The position numbers and the translations under genes are program-made. A stretch of 64,000 bases of DNA from Hericium rajendrae (lineage: Eukaryota > Basidiomycota > Agaricomycetes > Russulales > Hericiaceae). The DNA is taken from assembly GCA_033439255.1 (NCBI GenBank), contig CM065888.1, forward strand, positions 1,178,001-1,242,000, written 5' to 3'. The notes beneath the pieces are model-generated. The model searched no databases. It saw only the letters and a list, made by a program, of their open reading frames with translations, and had not been told where the DNA came from. Below, piece by piece: positions 11,816 to 56,584 of the stretch; position 1 is the first letter of the stretch; every line of letters starts with the position of its first letter.

Positions 11816-14800
11816 ATGCCTGCACCACGGATATCCTATAGCCATGAGGCTGCACGCGCCGCTGCGCTGCAGGCCGAATTCAACGAGAAGAAATGGGTAT
11901 GGGTGCCCGACGAGAAAGACGGATACCTTGCGGGATGGGTCGTCAAGGAGGAAGAAGATGTTGGCGACGTGGTCATGGCCGCCGGAGGCGACGTGCGTTT
12001 ATCTTAACTCGTCCGAACGGGATTCACTGAGGTATCATGATAGATCCGACGACTGCCACTCTACGCACTGTCCAAGATGAATCCGCCTAAGTTCGATCGC
12101 GTCGAAGATATTGCAGATTTAACGTTCTTGAATGAAGCTAGCGTTGTGCACAATCTCAGACTAAGGTATGGCTCAGGAGCTATATATGTGCGTACCCATA
12201 CTTCGACATCATTCTTATTCACTGACCTTGGACGCGTGGTTGACCAGACATATTCCGGCTTATTCTTAGTCGCTATCAATCCTTACCAGACGCTCCCTCT
12301 TTACACAGATGCCATTGTCCAACAATACCGCAATAAACGACGCGACGAGAACCCGCCCCATATATTCGCCATTGCGGAGCGGGCCTGGGTCAACATGGGC
12401 GAGGAGCGGGAGAACCAGAGCATTCTGATCACCGGAGAGTCAGGCGCAGGTAAGACGGAGAGCACTAAGAAAGTGATCCAGTACCTCGCAGCTATCGCCA
12501 CGGATACCCACCGCTCGACACCATCCCATTCGCACACGCAGTCCCTCACAGGCTCGACCTCGTTTAATGCCATTATGCCGTCCACGGGCCTGCCTCGCAG
12601 CTCGTCATTCCGTCATAAGGCCCATCAATCCATGTCCGTCTCCAACTCCGCCTCGCAGGTTACGTCCAAAAGCCGCCTCGGCCTCTTGGAGCGCCAAATC
12701 CTGCAGGCAAATCCCGTCCTCGAAGCGTTCGGCAACGCGCAGACGCAGCGCAACAACAACTCCAGTCGATTCGGGAAATTCGTCAGGATCAGTTTTGCTC
12801 CGGACGGCAGCATTGCTGGTGCCAACATCGACTGGTATCTGCTCGAGAAGAGCAGGGTGGTCGTGCGGGCGGAGGCCGAGCGGAGTTTCCATGTGTTCTA
12901 CCAACTGCTCGAAGGCGGAGGTGCACTGAAAGGTACGTGGGAAGGTACGTCGCATTGGCGTCTTTGCTAAGCGCTTTGAAGATACCCTGCTGCTGGATGG
13001 TGGAGTGGACGACTACGAGTACCTGAACAAGAGTAGGAGAGAGGTTGACGGTATCAACGACCTCGAGGAGTGGAGCGCTTTGAAGAACGCACTGGAGGTC
13101 GTCGGCTTTTCCCCAGCAGAGCAGCTGGACCTCTTCCGGATTGTCGCTGCCATCTTGCACCTCGGAAACATCACCATTACGGCCACACGAGCGGATGACG
13201 CTGTGATGCCAGAACCTGCGCAGGCGGAGCGCGTTTGCCATCTTCTAGGTATTCCCGTGGCAGAGTTCACTCGTGCGGTTCTACGACCTCGAGTTCTCGC
13301 TGGGAGAGAATGGGTGACGCAGGCGCGCACACGGCAGCAAGCACTCGACGAGATCGCAGCGCTTTCTAAGACCCTGTACGAGAAATCATTTGGGTCGCTG
13401 GTGGACCGTATCAACCGCGCCCTGGACCGTCCCTCAGCCAAGTCCACCTTCATTGGCGTACTCGATATTGCTGGCTTCGAAATCTTTGAGGTCAATGCGT
13501 ATGAGCAGCTCCTGATCAATTACACGAACGAAAAGCTGCAGCAGTTCTTCAACCACCACATGTTTGTGCTCGAGCAGGAGGAGTACGCGCGGGAGAGCAT
13601 CGAATGGGACTACGTCAACTTCGGCCTGGATCTGCAGCCGACGATAGACCTGATCGAGGGCTCCGGGAACATTATTGGCGTGCTGAGCCTCCTCGATGAG
13701 GAGTGTATCATGCCGAAGGCGACGGACTTGACGTTCACGAACAAGCTGCATCAACTGTGGAGCGGCGAGTGCCCGCCAGGCGAAGAGCCGCATCCCGGTC
13801 GCGACAAGTACGAGCCGCCGAGGTTCCATCAGGGCTTCATCGTGCATCATTACGCGGGTAAAGTCGAGTACCGGACCGACGGATGGCTGGACAAGAACAA
13901 GGACCCGCTCAACGACAACCTGACGCGCGTCCTTAGCTCGTCCTCAGAACGCTACGTCGCGGCGCTATTCTCCGACTTTGCGCTCGCGCCGTCTTTTGGC
14001 ACCGGCGCGTCGCAGGCCGCCGCCAACATGTTCTTCGTCGGCAAGAAGCGCACGCTCAAGAAAGGCGCGTTCCGCACGGTCGGCCAGCGGCACAAGGAGC
14101 AGCTTTCGAGCCTGATGGCCCAGCTCTACGCGACGCAGCCGCACTTCGTCCGCTGCATCGTCCCGAACGCGAACAAGAAGCCCGGGCGCGTCGACGTGCC
14201 GCTCGTCCTCGACCAGCTGCGCTGCAACGGCGTGCTCGAGGGCATCCGCATCGCGCGTCTCGGGTACCCGAATCGCCTCCCGTTCGTCGAGTTCCGCCAG
14301 CGGTACGAGGTGCTCACGCCCGGGATCATCCCCAAGGGGTACATGGACGGCCGCAAGGCGTGCCTGCGCATGGTCGACGCGCTGGAGCTCGACAAGTCGA
14401 TCTTCCGCATCGGCACGTCGAAGATCTTCTTCAAGGCGGGCGTGCTGGCGGAGCTGGAGGAGCGGCGCGATGCGCTGCTGTTTGAGATCTTCTCGAGGCT
14501 GCAGGCCGTGGCGCGGAAGTTCACGGCGCGCCGGCAGATGAAGAAGGTTCTCAATCGGGCGGTGGCTATCCGGACTATTCAGCGGAATGCGCGGATATAT
14601 GCTGAGCTGAGGGAGTGGCCGTGGTGGCAGTTGTATACCAAGGTGCGTGCCGTGAGGTCTCGTTCTCATTTCTTTGCTGAGGGTACCTCTTTTCCAGGTA
14701 CGGCCTTTGTTGGCTGCGACGCGTAATGACGACGAGCTGCGCAAGAAGGAGGCGGAATTAGCGCTCGCGAAGGAGCGAGCTGAGCGCGATGCGAAGGAAA

Positions 14801-17800
14801 GAGAGGCCCTCACAGCTCTCAGGATGCGCTTGGAGACCGACAAGCGGAAGGTCGAAGACCAGCTGGATCAGGAGCGCCAGCTCGCTGTGGATAAGGACTC
14901 CCTACTGGAGCGGAGCAAGAAGCGCGAACTGGAGCTGGAGGAAGAGGTCGCTGCGCTACAAGCTGATCTGGAGACGATGGATTCGCAGCTCGATCGGGCG
15001 ATTCAAATCCAGAAGGAGAGCGAGGAGAAGCATGAGGCGCTCCGCATCGCGTTCGACCAGGCTGCGGAGCATCTTGTTCGTCTGGAGACTGACCAGGTGG
15101 AATGGACCGGCCGGGAGGGCGAGCTCGTGGAGCATCTTGGAGAGGCCGAGAATGAGATTGAGTTGTTGCGGGGCGAGAAGGAGCAAATGGAGAAGGACCA
15201 CGAGGAGCTGAAGCAATTGGTGGCACAGAAGGAGGAGGATCTCGCTCGAGCGAAGGAGCGCATGGAAAGCACGATCTCAGAGTTGGATGGCAAGCTGAAC
15301 GTTGAATTGCGAAATCGGTGTGTTGAACTCAGTCCTATATTGACAGACATTCATGTTTCGTTCCAGTGATGTTGTCAAGAACCGAGCAGACAACTTGGAG
15401 CAAGACGCCCGTCAGGCCAAGGAACAGCTGGCGGAGATGGCTCGCACTGCCACGGAATATTCATCTATGATCAAGCGCAAAGAGGATGCCATCGATCGCC
15501 TGACCGCGGAACTCGACCAGTCCAAAGCGGAACGCAACCGTCTGGCTCAAGAAATCACCGAACTTCAGGGCCAGGCCCATACACTCGAAGCCGAGCTGCA
15601 GTCTGAGAAGGATATTGGCAGGCGAAATGCTTCACTTCACACGAAGCTCCAGGAAGAGCTGGATGAACTGCGTGCTCTTATGGAGGCCAAGTCAAGCGAG
15701 GACACGCGCCGCAGTGAGGTCGAAAAGCGGAAAGAGGAAGAGCTCGTCGATCTTCGAGGTCAGGTCGCAAAGCTGCAGAGCGAGCTGAACGACTCGCGCC
15801 GTGCGGCCGTGGAAGCCCAAAGCAAGCTCAAAGTCGAGTTGGACTCGACTTCACGCGAGCACAAGTCTTTACTCAATAGCCACCGTTCTCTATCCGATCG
15901 CATGCAAGCAAGCGATTCGCAGCTGAAGAAGGCCGAAGCTGCCCTCCTGGAAGTCGAGAAAACCAAACGATCCTTGGACTCGGAGCTTCAAGCATTGCGT
16001 TCTCGACAGATTGACACCGATGGGCAGCTTGCAGAGGCCCAAAAAGCTAAGGAGGTTCGTTTCCCTGTGGCTCTCATCCTTTATCCACGTATTCACGAAC
16101 CATCTAGAGTCTTGAGCGCCAGCTTGGGGCAGCACAGGCCAAGTACCAGGACTTTGAGGACACTGCTCTCCAACTCGAGCGCGAGAAGAACACCCAGGAT
16201 CGCCATCTCGAGACTCTCAAGAAACAGCTCGAGGCGGAGATGACCAAACGCACGGAGCTGGAGAAGAAGGTCAAGAGTCAAAAGGCTGAAATCATTCAGC
16301 TCAAGGATCGCACGGTTAAATTCGATCGCGAACTGAACAAGGTTTTGACTGACCTGAAGACCCGTGAATGGGAGGTCAAGCAGCTCGAGTCGAAGCAAGA
16401 CAAGACCATTGTGGAGCACGTGCATGTTTTGGAAGAAGCGAAACGCGTCACCGACAGGCAGCTTCAGGAAGCTCAGCTAGAATTGCAGAAGAACGCTGCG
16501 TACATCCGTTCTCTCGAGAAAGTCAAAGCTCGACTTACGAACGAGGCCGAAGATCTGGCTCGGGAGACCGAGCGAGAACATGCTGAATTTCGCTCGAAAG
16601 AGAAGGCAGCGCGCACGCTGGAAGAGCAGGTCAAGCGAGCGCTCATGGATGCCGAGAACGAGCGCAAGGGAAGAGAGGCTGCTGAAATTCACATACGCAG
16701 GCTTCAAACCGACCTCAAAAACACTCGAGACCAGATAGCGGATGTGACACAGCAGACAATGGCCATGCAACGATCGAAGGACAATCTCGAGATGGAACTC
16801 GCGCGCCTCGCGGACGAGACGGATGCCCCGGATTCTATGGCTAAGATGCAGCGGCAGTACGAGTCGCGCATCTCTCAGCTTGAGAGCCAGCTGCAGGACG
16901 CGGAGTCTACGAAGGCCACAGCGTCAAAGATCAAGGAACACATCGACCGTCAGCACGCAGAAATCCGACGGCTTATCATGAGCGGCAATGTCAACGATGA
17001 CAGCTTCCGGAATCGCTTGCTGCGCGAACTGCAGTTGACGAAGGAAGAACTGGAGAAGGACATGTCTTCACGCTCGACGCCACAAACTTCGCGTCGCGGA
17101 TCCGATGCGCGCACCCTCGCAAACGTCACGCCCACCAAACGCACGTCTCACGGTACAAACGGCATTCTGCGTGCTCGCACACCCCAAGTTGACTCGCCGC
17201 GGAAGTCGGACGGTCAGATCGCTGCGCTCAAGCAGCAAATGCAAGTGCTGGAAATCAAGATGGCCGCTTCCGACCGCGTGCGCCAGCATCTTGAGACGTC
17301 TCTCCGAGAGTTGACTGCGGAGCTCGAGAACAGCGATGGGTCCAAGATGTCCATTCAACAGTATCGCAATCGGCTGGCCAAAGAAAATAGCCGGCTCGCG
17401 GAATTGTTGGAGGACGAAGCGGAGGCAAGGAGACATGCCGAGGCTGCTCAGCTGGACGGCATCCAGGAGATGTGGAATAAATTCCAGAATACCATCTCTG
17501 CGGAGCGGGACAGCTATGCACGTCTGGAGGAGTCGCGGAAAGCCTTGGTGAGTGTAGCTCCGAGAGATGGTGCATTTAACTGACGATGTTTTGCAGGTCG
17601 TGCAGCAACGAAATGCCCAGGTTGAGCTGGAAGATCACAAACGTCAAGTCCAGGAGCTTTCGCAATCTAAAAAACAGCTGCAAACGGACGTTGCTGACCT
17701 CAAAGACCGCCTTGAAGTCGAGATGATGACCAAGAACGAGGAAACAAGTACGCCATCTGTCACACAATTGCTTCCATGTCTAGACTTAACTCTGTTATAG

Positions 17801-36098: not shown

Positions 36099-36840
36099 GC
36101 TCTCGGCGGCTTTCACCGGTAACTGGGAAAAAGGAATGGTCTTGATTCGGGCTCCGCAGGGGAGGGCATGGACGGTGCGAGCAGAGTATCGTGACTCGGA
36201 CGGGATTGTGGAAAGGACAGATTGAGAAGTGGTGCGGCATCTTGCTGGAACCACCCCCCTCTCTTCCTGACTGTCTGTTGCGCAGATGTGCGTTGTGGAG
36301 TCTCAGCAAGTAGACCCCGCGCAGATAGACTCAACCCCAGCTACCGATCGCTCGCGCCCCGTCCCTCACCCCCACTGCTGCTGTAAAATACACCATTCAT
36401 TGTGCGCAATATCACGGACTCCTAGAGCGCAATGCCCCTTCCGTCTCAACCCCCTTGCTCCCAGTTACCCTTCCCAGTTCCCTCCGGTCGTCCGTTGCAT
36501 TTCATTTCTCCTGATCTTGTCACCAAGCCCTACGTACCAGTACTTATTATTGCGCTTATTCCCTGTTGTCGTCTTCCACTGCTCTTGCTGCACATCCTCG
36601 TCTGTCTCATTGATCTATCGCTTTCTTCGTCGCCTGCACAACTACCATTCCACCCACCCCGCGTCTGTCTTCCCTATCGATATTTCAGTGCTATTCAGAC
36701 ATACAATTCTCCGTCGCGACGCTCCGTCACCCACGCTCCTTAATCTTCCCGAATGTGGTGCGCGTGCCGCTTCCTTTTCCATACGCAGGCCCCGCGCGTC
36801 ATGCGTGCATGCATACCACCCACCCGTAGTCCGTCGCAAT
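36099..36840. other. Pyrimidine-rich intergenic stretch
   Basis: About 740 bp. From roughly 36,330 to 36,760 the + strand is strongly C/T-rich, which opens a long chance frame of Pro/Ser/Leu without a recognisable domain. No RNA gene was found. Confidence 0.4.
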
Positions 36841-37785
36841 TACTTGTACTCTCTATGAATCCGTTTCCTTCTTCTCGCTCCCTATTCGCATGCTCCGAGA
36901 CTGCACTAATGCATCGCTATGGTAATTATTGCTTTTCAAGAAAATAGGTGTTTCGGCGGCCGTGTCTACAGCGAGGTCCGTGCAGGGGAAGCGAAGAGAA
37001 AAGTACAACATTCTGAGGAATCCTGAGTGACCGAACTATGAAAGCGCGAATCCGAACCGATCTAAGTACCGAGTCCATATCATTCCGCGAGTGTCCAATC
37101 ACTCCGCGCCGTCCTCCGCGCCGCCCGCATGCGTCTCCAAAATGCTAAAGTCGATAACACCGACATTGAGGCGCTCGGGCCCGTCAGGATCGAACCCCCC
37201 GCCGCCTGCACATGCCATAAGTCCACGCACGCTCGCGTTAATAAACGAAGAGAAGACGCACCGGCGGGCTGGGCCCAGAGCACGAGCGCGGTCGATGCCT
37301 GCAGCGGCGGCTCCGCATTACTTGTACTCTTCAAGAACCCAATTCCTTCTTCTCACTCCCTATTCGCATGCTCCGAGGCTGCACTAATGCATCGCTATGG
37401 TAATTATTGCTTTTCAAGGAAATAAGTATTCCGGCGGCCGTGTCTACAGCGAGGTCCGTGCAGTGGAAGCGAAGAGAAAAGTACAACATTCCGAATGACC
37501 GAATTATGAAAGCGCGAATCCAAAGCAATCTAAGTACCGAGTCCGTATCATTCCGCGAGTGTCCATTCACTCCGCGCCGTCCTCCGCGCCGTCCACATGC
37601 GTCTCCAAAATGCTAAAGTCGATAACACCGACATTAAGGCGCTCGGGCCCATCAGGATCGAATCCCCCGCCGCCTACACTCGCCATGAGCCTGAACCCAC
37701 GCACGCGGTAACAAACGAAGAGAAGCACGCACCGGCGGGCTGGGCCCAAAGCACGAGCGCGGTCGACGCCTGCGGCGGCGGCTCG
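36841..37785. repeat. Tandem duplication of the F-box gene 3' end (2 x ~475 bp)
   Basis: The unit 36841-37318 is repeated at 37319-37785. Both begin TACTTGTACTCT and contain TCGCATGCTCCGAG, ATGCATCGCTATGG and AATGCTAAAGTCGATAACAC in the same order, with a few small indels and an estimated 85-90% identity. Copy 2 contains the terminal exon and 3' flank of the F-box gene; copy 1 is a detached extra copy downstream. Confidence 0.9.
37080..37318 (-). pseudogene. Detached copy of the F-box gene's last exons
   Basis: In copy 1 of the tandem duplication, the minus strand still encodes STALVLWAQPAG and a version of the C-terminal exon. It has no upstream gene body, because the duplicated unit begins only at that point. 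It may serve as an alternative 3' end for read-through transcripts, but no evidence for that is visible. Confidence 0.7.
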
Positions 37786-45951: not shown

Positions 45952-48454
45952 CTACACCTCCTGCTCATAAGTATCATCGGGACCCCACTCCTCACCCTTG
46001 TCGCTCCCCTCCAACTCGCCTTCTGCATCTTCGTCTTCAGGAAGTACTTTCCCACCGACGGCCCCACCACCTTCCTCTTCCACCACGACCATCTCCTCGT
46101 CCTTATCTTCCGGTGGCATCTGATAGAGGCCGGACGTCTCCACATCTAAGCCCTTTTCGTCTCCGCCGGGCACACCTTCTTCGCCAAACAGGTCCTTCAG
46201 TGCGTCGTAGTTGATCCGCTTGCTGTACTTTGGATTCTTCTTCAACAGCGTGCGCACCGACTCGGCGGCAGTTTCGCCATGCGCCGTGGTCGTATCTCGC
46301 GGTTTGTGCAAGGATTTTCGACGCTGAAATGATGAAGTACCAGCTGTGAGAAAACTGAACAGGCGATTCTAATAGGGCGAAACTCACCTTCCGGCTCTTC
46401 GCCTTCTCCCCCGTTTCTGCCTGCTCCCCGCGAGCGGCAATAGCTTCGAGATACTCCCGATTCATCTCGATCCATACCCGCTCCTTAACCCTCACCTCGT
46501 CTTCAGTCAGCAAGAAGGAATCCAGTTCCTCATCATCCAGGCCACTAAGATCAAGTTCAGCGCTCTCCGGCTCCTCCTCCTCCCAAGCCGCTGCCCCACC
46601 GTCCACGAAAACGTCCGCATCCTTGACAAGCTCAAGCTCTCCTTCTGCGTCCTCATCCAGACTAGGATACGGTTCCGGTGCGTGAGCCGCCGGAGCTTCC
46701 GGCTTGGGAGGCGGAACAGATGTTTGGCGCGTCCGAACCTCAGTTACTGCTCTCCGCCGGGCCTCCGCTTCCTCTCGCCGCTTCTGATCCGCTTCAGCTA
46801 GCGCTGCAGAGAGCATCGACGCCTGTTCCGTAGACAAGAAGGTAGACACCTCAGCGGCAAGGACGGTGTCAAGAGACGCCTCGAGCTGGGAGGAGACGGC
46901 GAAATCGGGCTCCTTTTCCACCGCATGTACACTCGCGGCGTCGCTTACGAGCGTGAGCGAGGGCTCCCGCATGGATGTGTCAAATAGCGCTGGGTCGATG
47001 TTTGCATCGCGAAGGGTTTCTTCGGTATCGTCGGGCTCGGGAAGGAACAACGGTTCGGGTTGTAGCGTGCCCGCCAGAATACCTTCGTTAAGCAAACTGG
47101 GGTCGATCGCTGGTCGTTCGACTTTTGCCGCTTGTCTTTCTTCAAAAAGACCTTCCTGCTCGTCCTCACTGTCAACCCTCCGCCGTTTCCTACCTTTCCC
47201 CTTTGCCTTTGCCTTGTCCTTGCCTTTCCGCTTCTTCCCAGCCTCCTCCTCCTCAGCTTCCAGCTCCTCTCTCTCCTTCTCCTTGCCCTTGATAAACGCC
47301 GGCGGATCATGCTCTTCCTCGAGCCACACGCTCCGGAAATCGCCAATCGTGAGCGCCGCACTGCCCGTCCGGCGGAACTCCTCCACGCGCTTGCGCACCG
47401 TCGAGTCCGCGATCTTCACGACCTGCACGACCTCCTCGACGCTGCGCCGGAAGTTGTTCATGCGCGCGGCGAGCAGCAGCGCCGCGCCGCAGATGCCCGC
47501 GGGGCGCCGGCCCTTCGTCATCCAGTCCCGGTCGAAGCGCTGCACGAGCCGCACCGCGTCCGTCGCGACGCGCGCCGTCTCCGCGCCGAACTCGAGCAGC
47601 GCGGCGAAGCGCGAAATGTAGTGCGACGGGTCGACGAGCGGGAGGCGCAGGTTGAGCGTCTGCACGAGCTGCAGGTAGGTGTGGCCGAGCTCGAAGACGT
47701 TCACCTGTGAGGAGCACGCTGTGTCAGCCGGAGTGGGGATGGAGAGGACGCATATACGCACCTGGAGGAGGTCGGAGAAGTCGATGAGCATGTAGTTTCG
47801 CGTCTCCTTCTGCCGGCAGGCGACGTATAGACAGACAGCTACGACGTTCAGGCTCTTTCGGCCTTTGGTGAATTTGTGCTCGACCGCGAGGGTGTAGAGC
47901 CGGGTCGCGGCGAGGGAGACGACTTCCGAGAGTCGCAGCACGGTGGCAATGCTTTGAATTTTTCGCGTTGCTATATGCGCATACAGAACGCACGAGAAGG
48001 TATAGTAAGAAACAAGGATCACAATGAGAAGGAAAGAGACTTCATACCGTTTGCGATAGTCTGTTCCCTTGACTCGGTCGTCCCTCTGGCCCCAAATGGC
48101 CCCCCTAACCTTGCACGGGCTATACAAGCAGCAAATCAGTAATCAGGCCCAAGAACCATTGCGAAAGGAAACAAAGAGTACGCACTAGCGCCTTGTGCGA
48201 CATACGCGCCGTGCACGACTGCCGCTCCCCCAGCCGTCTCGCCGAATGAGATCTCGTTTACGATTGCGTTCTCCTCCACCACCGTGCCGCATTGCACGCA
48301 GAATCCATTTCCGGCCGCAGCGTCGTATTCGATAATAGTGCCGCCACAATCCGCGCACACGGGCTTTGTGGTCAAGAATCGGAGGGGTAGATCGTGAGGG
48401 GCGGGGAACTCGTTAGATGCGCTCCGAATGTCAGGAAATCTCGAAACTCACCAT
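45952..48454 (-). CDS. BRF1: TFIIIB subunit BRF1
   Basis: The TFIIB-related factor that places RNA polymerase III on tRNA and 5S genes. Exon 1 contributes only the ATG (48452-48454). Intron 48364-48451 (GTGAGT...CACAAAG) then joins it to PVCADCGGTIIEYDAAAGNG and FCVQCGTVVEEN, a C4 zinc ribbon. Then come GGPFGARGTTESREQTIANG and two cyclin folds with KIQSIATVLRLSEVVSLAAT, FTKGRKSLNVVAVCLYVACR, FELGHTYLQLVQTLNLRLPL, RFDRDWMTKGRRPAGICGAA and RMNNFRRSVEEVVQVVKIAD. A long acidic/basic linker leads to the BRF1-specific block LDLSGLDDEELDSFLLTEDE with ERVWIEMNREYLEAIAAR. It ends GPDDTYEQEV at 45952. Length is about 700 residues, normal for the family. Its start codon lies 171 bp from the insertion site of the RecQ/DUF6589 transposon, so its promoter is now next to the element. 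Confidence 0.95.
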
Positions 48455-48616: not shown

Positions 48617-48625
48617 AGTCATAGG
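48617..48625. repeat. Target-site duplication, left copy (AGTCATAGG)
   Basis: A nine-base direct repeat identical to 56296-56304, immediately outside the terminal inverted repeat that begins TAGACTCG at 48626. Perfect identity suggests a recent insertion. Confidence 0.88.
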
Positions 48626-48870
48626 TAGACTCGTACCCAGTCCAGCACGTAAACACGCTTATGTGAGGTAATTTAGAGACGCGAGTTTACGAGCGGACTG
48701 GGCCACAGCGTCGCCATTTTGGCTGACGCGTCGTTTCCCCGCCAAATCCAGAGCTCGTCTTCAACAAAAAAACGGGACTCAACTTCAAAAAAAGGTCCCT
48801 TAAGTCAGTAAATAAAAAACGATTTTTATTACATTCTGAGTCGATTGGTATATACAATGTTTTTCCGAAA
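48626..48870 (+). repeat. Left terminal inverted repeat of the transposon
   Basis: Three layers: the 15-bp terminus TAGACTCGTACCCAG; an outer hairpin 48636-48702 with arms of about 22 bp (CCCAGTCC...GTAAAC against GTTTAC...GGACTGGG); and inner repeat 48705-48870, which matches the right end in inverted orientation with scattered differences and small indels. Confidence 0.85.
48636..48702. repeat. Left outer hairpin
   Basis: An imperfect palindrome with CCCAGTCC at one end and GGACTGGG at the other. The internal arms contain CGTAAAC and GTTTACG. The loop contains ATGTGAGGTAA, related to the loop of the right hairpin. Confidence 0.8.
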
Positions 48871-49123
48871 ACGAACGAAATTCTTGACTTAGGCTTCGGT
48901 GCGAGACAAGTGCCTCGGAGTGATGCATATATATATGCAGTTTCAATGACACTTCTGGTCCACGATTGAGGTTTCCTTGGTTTAAGATTCATCATACGAA
49001 CAGTTGGGAACCAGAATTCAAGTATATTCTATGATTCACAGAGCTCTAGAATGGCTTCAAGTCGAAATGTACACTATCACTACTCCTCCCGATGCAGCGC
49101 ACTGAGCCACACCAATCAAACAT

Positions 49124-51643
49124 TCACCACCATCGAGCCTCTCCCGGTCGCCATCCCAGACTGTACCAGTAAGCTTCGATCTCCTGCATAGTAAGTGGGG
49201 ACCATCCGTGTTGCGAAGCAACAGCGAACGGGGGGCTTGCGAGTGCGTCGCTCGAGGCGGCAACAGCTGTTAAAGCAAGGCTGGGATCACTGGAGGTAGA
49301 GGCCAATAGCATCGGCGATGCCACATTTGAGGGGCCTGCGACCGTCTCATTTGCAACGGCGATCTCATTTGAGAGTGGAGATGGGCGCGGTCGTTTCCGT
49401 GATTTCGAGGATGTTGATGATGGCTCCATCTCCATGGTGTCTGAATGAGCTGTGTCAGTCGAGCGCTTGCGAGTTCCATTTGAAGTCGATACTGCTGGTA
49501 TAGATGACATGTTGAGTCCTGAGAGAACTTCGAATAGCTCATCTCCAAATCGTGGCCATAAGGCCCAGCTTGATTGAAGAATGTCTGCAAGCTTTTCCTT
49601 GGTAGGTATGGGGACGACCGATGCGAGAAGCTCGCAAGTGTCATTGCTGAGCAGGCCATGCGGTGCCACCAGTGAGCTAGAAAAATGGGTCTTCTTCATG
49701 CCTCGACGCCACGTATACAATGCATCTCGCACAAAGTCGTACGGCTCGTGTTTCTTCAGTCGAGTTTGCCGCGCTGATGAAGGCCGTGCACCTGGTCGCA
49801 CCTGGCCCAAAAGGCTCCGATCGCAGAGATCACAGCAGGCGACGCTTAGATCACCTAATTCTCGGTGAGTACCAAAAGTGATATGGAGAGATAAAAAACG
49901 TACTCGAAGGACCATTCTCGAAGGCCTTGCGAAGAACTCCCCGTCGGCACTTTGTTGTCTGAATGAGAACATATAGGCCTTCAGCCGGTGATATGTCCGA
50001 AAGGGAAGGCTCGTCGACTATTACGATAGCGTCATGTTCGCCACCGTGCTCTCCTCGTCGCTGACCATGGAGGACTGCATAATCATTGCCGAGTCTCGCA
50101 CCTCGACCCCGCCCATTACCACGAGATCCACGAGATCCACGCCCATTACCGCGTCCATGCCCACGCCCACGCCCGCGTCCTCTGGTTGAATCCTGTACTG
50201 TCGATCCTGTTGATCCTGATGACGGTTCGAGGGGATCAACTTCGAATGCAGTCTTCTCCACCAAGAGAACTGCGAGTCCTGTGCAACCAGGGCCACGCGC
50301 AGCACGACCAGCTCGCTGAACCCATGCGCTGAGCGACGGTGGAGCCTTCCACTGGACGACTCGGTCGATATCAGAAATATTGCAGCCCTGCTTGCCAGTA
50401 AGTACCAGAAACCAGAGAAAATAAGCAACAGAGCTCACCATGCCAGCGGCATCAGTGCAGACCAGGACACGGATGATACCCGCCTTGAAGAGCGCCATGG
50501 CATCCCTCCGATACTCCTTGGACATCGCTGCATTGTACGGCCGAATTAGGCCTGTCTGACGTAGCTCCGAAGGGACACGGCTGTTGAGATAGTCCACGAT
50601 CGCACTTCCTGTCTTGATATCGTCACAATATAGGAACGTTTTGGGAATATCTGATGACTCTCGAACGGATGACGGAACCACAAAGTCGAGGTCGGCATAG
50701 GTGTTCATGGGATGCTGGATTGCGCGTACAACCTGGGAAACATTGGCGCGATCGTTACCGATGTTGATAAAGAGATAGTGCAATGGATTGAATTGAAGCT
50801 TCTGGATGATGTCACGGCGGACGCGCGGAGTGAGCGTCGCTGAGACGGCAACGAATGGGGTGGATTTCGGCAAGAATGCGCGAATGATCCCAATAGTCCC
50901 GTATTTCTTGCGAAATGATGCACCCCAGTGGGATACACAGTGCGCCTCGTCAATGAAAACCGAGAGAACACGAGACCCAAATTCTGGGCGACGCAAAACG
51001 TTCTCTGTGAAGCGGCGTGATTGAAGCATCTCCGGTGACACAATGACAATTGGCCATTCTCCTGCGACGATGCGCTGTTATCAAGGTAAGCACGAAGCTG
51101 GAGGTTCGGGTGTAGACGCCATGCATCGCACCTTCATTCTTGACTTGCTACATCCACCATGGGCACTGTTGATCGCGACAGCCTTCATGCCAAACTCTTC
51201 ACGGAATGTCGTCACCTGTCGTCAATGCAATAGTTGAAAAAAGGCGAGACTCGAATGCATAATTCACTCACTTGTTCCTCATGCAGCGCAATGAGAGGCG
51301 ACACCATCAGGGTCACCTTGCCCGCATTACACTCTAGGAGATGTGGGCCCGCAGCAATACCTGTTTTGCCTGACCCTGTAGCGGCATGTATGAGGACATC
51401 TTGTCCCATAACTTGTGCCCTCATCCCCTCGAGCTGAAATTCGCGAGCGCCTTGCGGCCAGCACTTGAATTTGTCGCGAATGAGCTCCGGCAGCTGCTTG
51501 AGTTGCTCCTCTAGCAAGGAAGCATCGGGCCTTGTTGCCCTCGGCAGTGTGGTATTTTTTCCTCGGGCATGGGTGGGTATATGTCGTTTATGACGAGTTC
51601 CCCGAGGGGTGGGAGTCGGTTTCGGAGCCGCCTTCGGAGGCAT
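49124..51643 (-). CDS. RecQ-like DNA helicase of the transposon
   Basis: An ATP-dependent superfamily 2 helicase. The start at 51643 reads MPPKAAPKPTPTPRGTRHKR; an in-frame ATG at 51688 is also possible. Motifs in order: Q-like region FQLEGMRAQVMGQDVLIHA, Walker A AATGSGKTG, motif Ia VSPLIALHEEQ, DEAH box VFIDEAHCVSHWG, motif III VAVSATLT, RecQ-typical YNAAMSKEYRRDAMALFKAG, VLVCTDAAGMG across an intron, DIDRVVQWKAPPSLSAWVQR and motif VI QRAGRAARGPG. An RG-rich stretch and Zn-ligand-like CCDLCDRS follow, then a long low-complexity tail ending LGWRPGEARWW at 49124. At least four introns were read and no inactivating change was found. The tail after motif VI is unlike cellular RecQ/BLM proteins (no clear RQC or HRDC domain), which fits an element-borne helicase. 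Confidence 0.87.
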
Positions 51644-51772
51644 GATATCTTGCTGAGGAGCGGAGGCAACGAGGTTCTGAGGACGCATGTGGACGCGCCA
51701 CTCAACTGAAGAGGGCGATCGATCCGTGTCTCGGTTTCAAATTTGTTTCCTGCAAAGCTGGCCTTCCTGACT
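51644..51772. promoter_or_regulatory. Shared divergent promoter of the transposon genes
   Basis: Only about 130 bp (or 54 bp, if the alternative upstream ATGs at 51688 and 51743 are used) separate the two start codons. Both element genes must therefore be driven from this short region, which would couple helicase and DUF6589 expression. Confidence 0.5.
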
Positions 51773-54700
51773 ATGGCCTCACGACGTCGAGCCATCCTAA
51801 CCTCCGATGACCTTGAGCCATCCAGGACAGACAATCACAATACAAGACACCGCGTACCTCGGTTGCCCTCATACACGCCCGAACCTGATGGCTCGCCAGA
51901 TGAAGATGCCGCTACTATGGACCATCTTCCGTCGTCAGAAGACTTCCCGTTAGCCCAACTTTACCTGCAAAGTATTGAATCTGAACGGCAGAGCCATCCA
52001 AACTCCACTCTATACATGCAGAACCGGCCTATCTCTCCTCGACGGCTGCGCAGATCATCGTGTCCACCTGCTCCGCAGACACCATCAAAGGGCCAGGTCC
52101 ACGCCATGTCAAGCGATGGCATCTTCTCTCCTGAAACAGAGAGGAAGGCGCTCAATAAACTGAGAGCTCAAAAGCGTCAGGACACGATCCAGTACAGGAA
52201 AGAGGTGGAGAAAGACTCACTCGCTCGGCAAGAAGAGATGGCTCAGGCCGCACAAAAAGCCTTATTTGACAGGGTACTAGCCGATCTTCATCAAGCCGGC
52301 TACACGCTCGCTCAGCTTCTGGAATATGTATTCGACCCAAGCACGACCTTGTCAGATGATCACCGCTGGAGAGGTTTCTTTCTCGACAAGGCCAGAGTCC
52401 TTCGCATACTCAATATATGGACTTCGTCCAGTAGCAGCGACTCTGCAAGAGTCATGGTGCATGGCTGGGCATTACAACTCATCAAGCAGTCAGTTCGAAA
52501 GGAAGCTGCCAGTATTACGGAAAGCGGACTTCTGCGTACCATGGACAAGACGGTCGACGAAGACTTTTTCATCTCGTACAGCCTATCGGGTATCACAGAG
52601 ACCCTCACAGAACTTGCGCCCAAAATGTTCGCTCTTTGCGCGGCATTTTCCACGAGTACACGACAGGAGCGCGAGATGTCGCAAGATGGTTTCCAACGCA
52701 AACGCTTGGTGCGTGATCCGTGAGTGGTGCTAGGCATAATTAGTCTGACCCCACCTCCTCCTAGCTTCAAGGTAGTGCCATTACAATCCTATTGAAAGGA
52801 TTCAGTCGAGCAAACAATTACCCTTCGATGGTCAATGGTACTTACCTGATGGCGACTGGAGCTCAGCGGCAACATTTCAGTGTTCTTAACTCGTTAGGAG
52901 TGTCAGCAGGCTACAGCAGTATCATTACCCCGGGAGAGTTCAAGACTCTTGATAGGGAAGAGGTACACACGAGTCATTTCTACCGCCAGTAAAGCTGTCT
53001 GATTTGAGGAATACAGCGGAAGACAAGCGAGAATGGCGAGAGTGACGCTGAAGCCGCAATCGGGTCGACGGGTCCGGGACAAGAACCTGCGCCTTCAGAT
53101 TCAACACGTAGCCCTAATCCAATGAGCAACGCACCTGAGGACCACGTCGCATCAAGAGCACAAGTCGAGATACCGGAGCCATCACAGAATGTGGATGCGG
53201 ACCTGGAGGTGGAACAGACACCGCAGCCACGCGTTGAACAAGCGCCCGCGCCCAAAGCGCCTCGCGCAGGAATGCTTCGACAGCTCTCTGACGCCTGCCG
53301 TGACTCCGCTCGTACTGTCGCCCAGGATGGTCGCTTCGGAAAGACGTACGACAATGTCAACCTCAATATCCAGGTTGCCGAGCAAATTCTGGGGAGAAAA
53401 AGTCAGTATCGGATGTGAGTTCGGCTTGAACTACAACTGACCATCTAAGCAGATACACAGGAAAACGGCACTTGCGCAACCGTGTTTCCTCTCTTCCAAG
53501 CAGAACTCGATGACATGTTGACGGAGGATATCGAGAACGGCATCAAGAACTCTTCTCAATTATCCATTGAAGCCATTTGCCTCTCTCCTGCTGAGCACAG
53601 TTTCTTCGACGAGTGTATGGTTCACACGATTCTTCGCATTATCGTTACTCACGGCGGCGATGGTTTCAAACGTTTTGAAAAGGATCTGAAGAGCTCTCGC
53701 CCGGAGTCTGATGACAAAATCGAAGTTCACAAAACATTAATCTACCCGCTTCCCGCTATGGAGATCGATGAAGCGTCAGTCACTGGGAATATCGAAGTCC
53801 TTGAGGCCATATACACGGAACTCGACCTCAATACCCACAGCACCGAGTTCACAAAGTACGCCAAAATTGTCGCCGGTGATCAGCTCACTATTGCCCGTCA
53901 ACGATCCATTGTCAATATCCGTATCGGCCATGAAGCTGGCGCAGAATCCTGGAAGCATGTAGCGTTGATGCCAGGACTTTTCCATGCAAAAATTGCTGAC
54001 TGTCACGGTGTGTTAGAGACACATTTTGGCAAGCCCAATGCAAGCACCCGCAGCCCCGGTGGCCTCTCATTTCATAACACCGTGCTGGACCGCATCCCCA
54101 TCGTTCTCACGTCACTACCGCCCTTTCGAACCTGTCGCGATCTTATCATGATCTCACTATATGCTCGCATCTTACACTGTCTGCTACTCGTCTGTGGACA
54201 GTCTTCCTTGGAGGACTGTGCAGCCTCCTTCGACAGCTGGGAGGCACTCGTGCGTGCTGCACGACTTATCTACGAGCGCTACGCTGATGCCGATTTTGTG
54301 CAAGAGCTGCGGGAAAAGCGGGTGCCCGAAGAACGCCAGCGTGAGGCTGCACGCAAGGAAATGCGCAAAAGCCAAGCCAGCTCGGCTGCGCATCCCAACA
54401 CTCCAAATCTCGACAATGTCTCTCATGACGCGCCCGAAGAGCCCCACTCGGTCGCTAGCAGTGAAGATGAGCATGTGAAGAAGGGCGATATGGTCTACGA
54501 GAATGCCCTCTTGTTCAATCGCGATGCACTGCTCACCCGCGAGTTTTCCGACTCCATCAAGACAGGCGATTCTGGACGTGTTATCACAATACTGAAGCTA
54601 TGGACTTTCGCATACCGGGGCCACGGTCGAATGAAGTACGCGTATGAGATGTTGCATCTCATCCATAACCTCACAGATGTCTGGCCAAAGCGATTCAGGT

Positions 54701-56040
54701 ACCCATCTATGTACGATTCGTCTTTGACCTTCGAACTCACCATTTTACTGTAGGGACATAATTATCAGGAACTGGCTCTTAAACCTGTCGGGAAAGGAGG
54801 ATGGGTGGGCAGAGGCAGACCTGATCCAGGAACATCTCAATTTTTGGATAAAGGTACGTACTTATGTTCTATGTCGCTGAATCCGAACGGGACTGAACCA
54901 CGACAACAGCGTATCTACAAGGCAGACGGGAATGCTCACTCCTGGGACTGGTTGGCCACTGTGTCTCCTTGCATAGACATCTTACGCCGTCTTGCCACCT
55001 CCATCCATGCCGATCTCGGTGCTCAGCAAGGTCTTAAACACACCACGCCTGAACTGCAACGCGACATTCACCGACTCATGCAGAGCTTGCAAGACCTCGA
55101 GGTGTACACTTACAAGGAAGGCCGGGTCTTTGACGCTGACGAAAAGCCAGCCCCTGATGCCATCGCTGTCGGATTTGCAGCGCTCTCATCTGGATCTTCG
55201 AGCAACCCACTGGCAGATTTTGGCATTGAATGCGAGCGCGCCCGTGCGCGTCGTCACTTAACTCCTATCGCGGACCTTCTCCAATTGCTGCCAAACGTGG
55301 ACCACGCCTCGCCGATTTCTGCAAACAGTCTTTTGCAGGCCATTCAAGAAAGTCGGGACTTGTGCACGTCAGAGGATCATCGAGCATCTGCCTCACCCCA
55401 TATCGCCATGCAGGCTGCTCCGGTCGCTGCTATAGACTCCGTCTCAGCCCCCGATGCTGCGCTTCTCTCCACGCCAAACCTCTACCCACGCGGTAATGCT
55501 TCCCCTGCCACAAACCTAGCTCCGTTCACTGAGGTGCTCAATGCTGTTGCAGGCAGTCAAGCGGCAGCACGTACCGTGCCGCCTATCACCACGTACAAAA
55601 CATTGTCGTCTTCCCCAGAAAGCACTGCACCATATGCTGCTGCACTTCCACTTCCAGAGTGCACGATGCCCGCCGCCTTATCTATGATGCCGCTCCCTGC
55701 CCCGGACGTGCTGTATGTCGCCCCATACACGGACGAGTCGGGCGCGGGACCCATCGAAGCATCTACATTGCCTGTTGTGGGCGACATATCTGATTCGGAG
55801 AGCTGGGAGGAAGTTCGTGACTCAGCTGGTGACTCTGACAGTGATGAGGATCTCGAGCGTGCAGGCGATGGAACAGATGACGAACGGGACCAGACACTCC
55901 TGCGAGTAGATGAAAGAGACGTAGCTCTGGAGATGGATCTGTTTGAGCAGACACAGATGGAGAATGATGACGAGTGGGAAGAAACGGACTCACGAGCAGG
56001 CTTTGAGCAAGCCATTGAGGATGACGGAGTAGAGACCTAA
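51743..56040 (+). CDS. DUF6589 protein of the transposon, candidate transposase
   Basis: Starts MFPAKLAFLTMASRRRAILT (the inner ATG at 51773 is equally possible). The N-terminal half contains YRKEVEKDSLARQEEMAQAA and a helical region LHQAGYTLAQLLEYVFD. After three introns comes the DUF6589 core: YAKIVAGDQLTIARQRSIVN, GHEAGAESWKHVALMPGLFH, AKIADCHGVLETHFGKP, SPGGLSFHNTVLDRIPIVLT, FRTCRDLIMISLYARILHCL, NALLFNRDALLTREFSDSIK, YAYEMLHLIHNLTDVWPKRF, DLIQEHLNFWIK and IYKADGNAHSWDWLATVSPC. It ends with an acidic tail, EQAIEDDGVET, at 56040. Length is about 1,300 residues with five introns; no stop or frameshift was seen. DUF6589 is uncharacterised as far as I know. GDQLT and FHAK-DCH look like conserved polar motifs of a nuclease-type active site, which is inference. 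It would act with the divergent helicase. Confidence 0.82.
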
Positions 56041-56044
56041 GTCG

Positions 56045-56295
56045 AAACATCTCGATTTTTTTTCGACAAAAATTTATATATACCAATCGACTCAAAATGC
56101 AACAAAACTCGTTTCTCATTTACTGACTTAAAGGAACTTTTTTCGAAGTTGAGGCCCGTTTTTCGTTGAAGGCGAGCTCTGGATTTGGCGGGGAAACGAC
56201 GCGTCCGCCAAATCGACGACGGATGAGCCCAGCCGGTTCCACAGAAGTGTCACCTCATTTATGAGATCACGTGGAACCGGCTGGGAACGAGCCTA
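56045..56295 (-). repeat. Right terminal inverted repeat of the transposon
   Basis: An inverted match to the left end. Inner repeat 56045-56216 carries TATATACCAATCGACTC, GCGGGGAAACGACGCGTC and AGAGCTCGCC-type matches. The outer hairpin is 56228-56285 and the terminus CTGGGAACGAGCCTA ends at 56295. Confidence 0.85.
56228..56285. repeat. Right outer hairpin
   Basis: A perfect 15-bp palindrome, CCCAGCCGGTTCCAC paired with GTGGAACCGGCTGGG, around a 28-bp loop. It is at the same place, relative to the element end, as the left hairpin. Confidence 0.9.
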
Positions 56296-56304
56296 AGTCA
56301 TAGG
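56296..56304. repeat. Target-site duplication, right copy (AGTCATAGG)
   Basis: Identical to the left copy at 48617-48625 and directly abutting the CTGGGAACGAGCCTA terminus. Confidence 0.88.
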
Positions 56305-56335
56305 GTCATATTATAATGCGAGTAATTAATTTTAT

Positions 56336-56419
56336 AGCAGCATGGCGCAGCTGGTATAGCGCGCAGGGCCCATATTATTGGTCACCCTGAGGTCCCTGGA
56401 TCGAAACCAGGTGCTGCTA
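56336..56419 (+). tRNA. Initiator tRNA-Met (CAT) with 9-nt intron
   Basis: Perfect acceptor AGCAGCA/TGCTGCT with discriminator A; D stem GCGC/GCGC; anticodon stem CAGGG/CCCTG with the three G-C pairs typical of initiators; loop CCCATAA once a 9-nt intron (TTATTGGTC) after base 37 is removed. The T arm is CCTGG ATCGAAA CCAGG, with A at position 54 and A at 60, the eukaryotic initiator signature. The A1-U72 pair also fits an initiator. Mature length is 75 nt before CCA. It lies 31 bp beyond the transposon's right target duplication. Confidence 0.93.
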
Positions 56420-56584
56420 ATAAAGTAATTTGGCCATTTGGACAAATATTTTGTCCATATTGTGGACCTTTTGTTGGTTCTGACACAAGTTTAGTGGGAA
56501 AGCTATCAAGCATTTTTGCTGCTGAAGCCTATGCAGGAAGATAACATGCCATGCTGTCACGGTTACGAGCAATACACATGCCAC

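Follow-up and report, generated by a model that had tools for sequence, protein, structure and literature searches.

A precisely bounded DNA transposon with divergent RecQ-type helicase and DUF6589 genes in Hericium rajendrae, probably of the AcademH type

When a gene for a RecQ-type helicase lies back to back with a gene for a protein of the family DUF6589, which Pfam still lists under ‘unknown function’, are the two simply host genes, or are they the working parts of a mobile element, and if so, of which kind? This question is raised by a locus within a 64,000-nucleotide stretch of the genome of the basidiomycete Hericium rajendrae (GenBank assembly GCA_033439255.1, contig CM065888.1, positions 1,178,001 to 1,242,000; hereafter the window, in whose own numbering all coordinates are given). 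Our analysis revealed that the 7,670-bp unit carrying this gene pair is a real, precisely bounded DNA transposon. Furthermore, the unit is very probably a full-length, apparently autonomous cut-and-paste element of the AcademH type, with DUF6589 most likely its DDD/E transposase.

The boundaries of the element can be read directly from the DNA. It spans positions 48626-56295, between two copies of the 9-bp sequence AGTCATAGG (48617-48625 and 56296-56304) that are the only occurrences of this word in the window, where its reverse complement is found nowhere. Since the bases that flank the two copies are unlike (T and A preceding, T and G following), the target-site duplication is exactly 9 bp long. 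Immediately inside it lie the tips of the element, TAGACTCGTACCCAG on the left (48626-48640, forward strand) and, when reverse-complemented, TAGGCTCGTTCCCAG on the right (56281-56295, reverse strand), giving a terminal sequence of 5'-TAGRCTCGTWCCCAG and termini of the type 5'-TA..TA-3'. Further in, there is a longer inner inverted repeat, with a left arm at 48709-48893 (forward strand) and a right arm at 56036-56221 (reverse strand) that match at 84% over a 187-bp alignment. This begins 83 bp inside the left tip and 74 bp inside the right one, and its right arm shares 5 bp with the 3' end of the coding region modelled for DUF6589. A preliminary description of the locus, made from the letters alone, had proposed a single DNA transposon with just such limits, and the exact duplication and the inverted repeats bear it out; its account of the ends needs adjusting, in that the 15-bp termini that it called matching are indeed inverted repeats but agree at only 13 of 15 positions, while the inner repeats that it put at roughly 150 bp are present but somewhat longer. 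A 9-bp direct repeat around 15-bp ends with at least 13 agreeing positions, all within 12 kb, would be expected by chance about 0.003 times per window, as computed from base frequencies with the inner inverted repeat left out of the calculation.

Between the tips and the inner repeats, both ends are predicted to fold, as DNA, into the outer hairpins that had been noted previously. The left hairpin (48636-48702, forward strand) has 20 pairs and a predicted energy of -19.1 kcal/mol; the right one (56228-56285, reverse strand) has 24 pairs and -21.9 kcal/mol, and its arms include a perfect 15-bp match (56228-56242 with 56271-56285). Each begins 10 nt inside the tip, so covering the final five bases of the 15-bp terminal repeat. 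When dinucleotide-shuffled sequences were folded with DNA parameters, none folded as strongly as either hairpin (0 of 1000 and, in a second run, 0 of 200, for each). This energy argument is weakened by the background of the window itself, in which 2.1% of 1,598 sampled 83-mers equal or exceed the left hairpin in folding strength, and 0.9% the right one (here a 74-mer compared with 83-mers). Because stretches of the window fold as strongly at these rates, more weight falls on the similar build of the two ends. If bulges are disregarded and the stem pairs are compared one after another, the two ends share 8 of their first 20 pairs, including the first five; the other 12 have different letters that still pair. 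The motif TGAGGT lies in the middle part of both hairpins, unpaired in the left copy and partly paired in the right. Two hairpin ends are too few to show covariation.

The element carries two divergent genes, the reading frames of which are open after the splicing of nine GT-AG introns of 49-57 bp, in exon models predicted from the splice sites. The preliminary description of the pair as a RecQ-like and a DUF6589 gene, divergently transcribed and apparently intact, thus holds for the genes as modelled. Their start codons are separated by 84 bp (51689-51772) that presumably act as a bidirectional promoter. To the left, on the reverse strand, lies the gene for a RecQ-type superfamily II helicase of 783 amino acids (49124-51688), modelled in five exons (51688-51272, 51215-51132, 51074-50439, 50387-49904 and 49854-49124). 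Its product matches the Pfam domains DEAD (E 1.6e-21) and Helicase_C (E 4.8e-15), and all six of the helicase motifs sought (I, Ia, II in the form DEAH, III, V and VI) were found. By E-value its best NCBIfam matches are RecQ models, with the scanned exon pieces falling under the curated cut-offs, and the main exon piece, when compared with PDB chains, finds WRN first, followed by RecQ, BLM and RECQ5. A repetitive Arg-Gly-rich stretch (50094-50183; RGRGRGRGHGRGNGRG...) separates the helicase core from a C-terminal region containing cysteines.

On the forward strand to the right is the DUF6589 gene (51773-56040), which would encode a presumed transposase of 1,331 amino acids in six exons (51773-52708, 52765-52962, 53017-53401, 53453-54698, 54754-54853 and 54910-56040); one of its introns opens with the rarer GTCAGT. 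Residues 541-999 match positions 5-410 of the 410-position DUF6589 profile with an E-value of 1.4e-140. As this is the only Pfam match of the protein at E up to 0.1, and covers nearly the whole profile, DUF6589 is the sole recognised transposase candidate. Across the proteins of the element no Pfam nuclease family reaches its cut-off; ResIII does so, on the helicase core.

To which group of transposons does such an element belong? The founding paper on the AcademH lineage of the Academ superfamily is reportedly Kojima 2020 (Mob DNA 11:15). According to the published descriptions, Academ transposons contain a RecQ helicase (PMC3627910, citing Kapitonov et al.), and AcademH elements combine a helicase with target duplications of 9 or 10 bp (PMC10045372). 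AcademH is known from animals and fungi, and among the latter it is present at low copy number in Basidiomycota, Ascomycota and Mucoromycota (PMC10799480). Copies of Academ in fungi are often annotated as host genes, owing to their DEAD/DEAH and RecQ domains (PMC6416283), and putative non-autonomous Academ elements are described in the mushroom Marasmius oreades (PMC8290104). The Hericium element resembles AcademH in having a helicase beside a transposase-like gene and in a duplication whose 9 bp fall within the AcademH range, and Basidiomycota are among the hosts stated for AcademH; in the features compared (helicase and duplication length) we found no difference. The AcademX lineage of Academ, to whose superfamily the element would belong provided that DUF6589 is the Academ transposase, makes duplications of only 3 or 4 bp. 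This difference between AcademH and AcademX has been related by its author to the possession of a helicase or a nuclease (PMC10045372); the element is without a nuclease family at the Pfam cut-off. In our reading, this is a further example of AcademH. The earlier statement that no described superfamily has this gene pair finds no support as far as architecture goes, since this is already described for Academ and AcademH (PMC3627910, PMC10045372, PMC10799480 and PMC6416283).

That DUF6589 is the Academ transposase is likely, since it is the only recognised candidate in an element whose other features fit AcademH. This is a step that we infer, because the name DUF6589 is absent from the literature searched; a search on its accession, PF20231, matched only an unrelated optics paper, and one on hairpin or subterminal ends of Academ returned no title about Academ ends among the matches listed.

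A number of observations weigh against this assignment. The fit to AcademH was judged on published descriptions of architecture, and RecQ is not confined to Academ, being found also in Kolobok lineages, as set out below. Within the window, blastn of the element and its ends (E up to 0.01) recovered only the element itself and its own repeats and no second copy, and the arms of the inner inverted repeat are only 84% alike. The DUF6589 core had no match among PDB sequences up to E 1, and its single-sequence fold prediction (mean pLDDT 39.3, pTM 0.24) was too poor to reveal a DDD/E site. Searches for relatives, which covered viral and bacterial or archaeal contigs and no eukaryotic collection, were likewise empty. 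In viral contigs, scans that require exact 8-residue words from one sequence, and so detect only close relatives, gave three pattern matches for the DUF6589 core and four for the main helicase exon piece, none of which was upheld by tblastn, and a degenerate DNA pattern of an 8-residue DUF6589 peptide gave none. This pattern had three matches in bacterial and archaeal genome contigs; we count these as chance, because tblastn of both whole proteins against them reached a best E of only 0.69. As the element is fungal, a null result in these collections is little surprise.

Against this background, several other readings have to be weighed. That the repeats merely happen to surround a pair of host genes is suggested by the fact that RecQ helicases also occur as ordinary repair genes, yet the duplication and ends by themselves are expected only some 0.003 times, with the inner inverted repeat uncounted, making such a coincidence highly improbable. 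We give as little credence to a Helitron-like or other non-DDE element, a reading to which the helicase gene and the hairpin 10 nt inside each tip would lend themselves. A 9-bp duplication and inverted termini, as seen here, are not Helitron features. Helitrons combine a HUH nuclease with a helicase (PMC12730594), whereas a Pfam search up to E 0.1 revealed neither HUH/Rep nor Helitron_like domains. Zisupton, Dileera and Kyakuja (KDZ) and Plavaka are, like this element, DNA transposons of fungi; they were set aside on account of their duplications, of 7-8 bp in KDZ and 2-3 bp in Plavaka (PMC12730594), as against 9 bp here, and for the second protein of the element DUF6589 is the sole Pfam match at E up to 0.1, the KDZ transposase having been compared through Pfam only.

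An element of the Kolobok type that carries RecQ, KolobokH or one like it, is also very unlikely. KolobokH, found only in fungi, encodes a RecQ helicase, and in Kolobok-1_CCri, from a red alga, RecQ lies on the complementary strand, in the same orientation as in our element (PMC9587614); a telomeric KolobokH has two RecQ-like genes (PMC10989895). Kolobok elements, however, duplicate TTAA and have termini of the type 5'-RR..YY-3' (PMC9587614), neither of which is found in this element, with its 9-bp AGTCATAGG and 5'-TA..TA-3' termini, and the helicase of KolobokH follows downstream of its transposase domain (PMC9587614), whereas here it is a divergent gene. The element might instead represent a separate, undescribed superfamily, whose DUF6589 transposase is unrelated to that of Academ and which gained its RecQ helicase independently. 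The silence of the searched literature on DUF6589 and the lack of any match among PDB sequences at E up to 1 speak for this, as does the uptake of RecQ by at least two superfamilies, Academ (PMC3627910) and Kolobok (PMC9587614). We nevertheless consider it unlikely, as the helicase and the 9-bp duplication agree with AcademH, the stated hosts of which include Basidiomycota. A bolder form of this idea seems to us slightly more doubtful again: that a DUF6589 superfamily apart from Academ has ends capable of forming cruciforms, in which pairing is kept even though most stem letters differ from one end to the other, and that transposition requires the opening of these hairpins by the element's own RecQ.

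If the element is of the AcademH type, as we favour, its movement can be proposed in outline, with catalysis by DUF6589, the part played by the helicase and present-day mobility all presumed. The DUF6589 protein would bind the terminal repeats, pair the ends and excise the element, before joining it to the target strands at cuts offset by 9 bp; filling of the gaps left in this way would then produce the 9-bp duplication. The RecQ helicase of the element would probably work at the ends or on a gapped intermediate; it might, for instance, unwind the terminal hairpins, or aid repair and the resolution of the gapped product after strand transfer.

The position of the element in the genome was also considered. 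BRF1 is a subunit of TFIIIB, which acts upstream of tRNA genes. The left neighbour of the element (46103-48127) is a BRF1-like gene with TFIIB repeats and a BRF1 domain, while on the other side ARAGORN predicts a tRNA-Met(CAT) at 56335-56420, 30 bp past the right target duplication. Rfam conflicts with this prediction: at gathering scores nothing in the window matched, nor did anything up to E 0.5 in 56250-56500. The element may lie just upstream of a tRNA gene, at a position relative to the predicted tRNA that would be near the usual TFIIIB footprint. The presence of a BRF1 gene on one side and a predicted tRNA on the other is probably a coincidence, and one insertion proves no targeting. Elsewhere in the window, a forward-strand coding region at 12077-17583 has myosin head and myosin-tail-like parts, and a 468-bp unit occurs in two tandem copies with 88% matches (36839-37779). 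Intron lengths of 49-57 bp are compatible with a fungus, as are neighbouring genes like those for BRF1 and myosin.

Taken as a whole, this locus provides a clean, bounded example that links the Pfam family DUF6589 to a mobile element, and its paired hairpin ends offer a concrete handle on why a transposon carries a helicase. The annotation lead of value is DUF6589 as the probable AcademH transposase. The problem of re-annotation has already been raised for Academ (PMC6416283); if DUF6589 is indeed the AcademH transposase, fungal genes now labelled ‘DUF6589’, together with many of those labelled ‘RecQ-like’, could be re-annotated as transposon genes.

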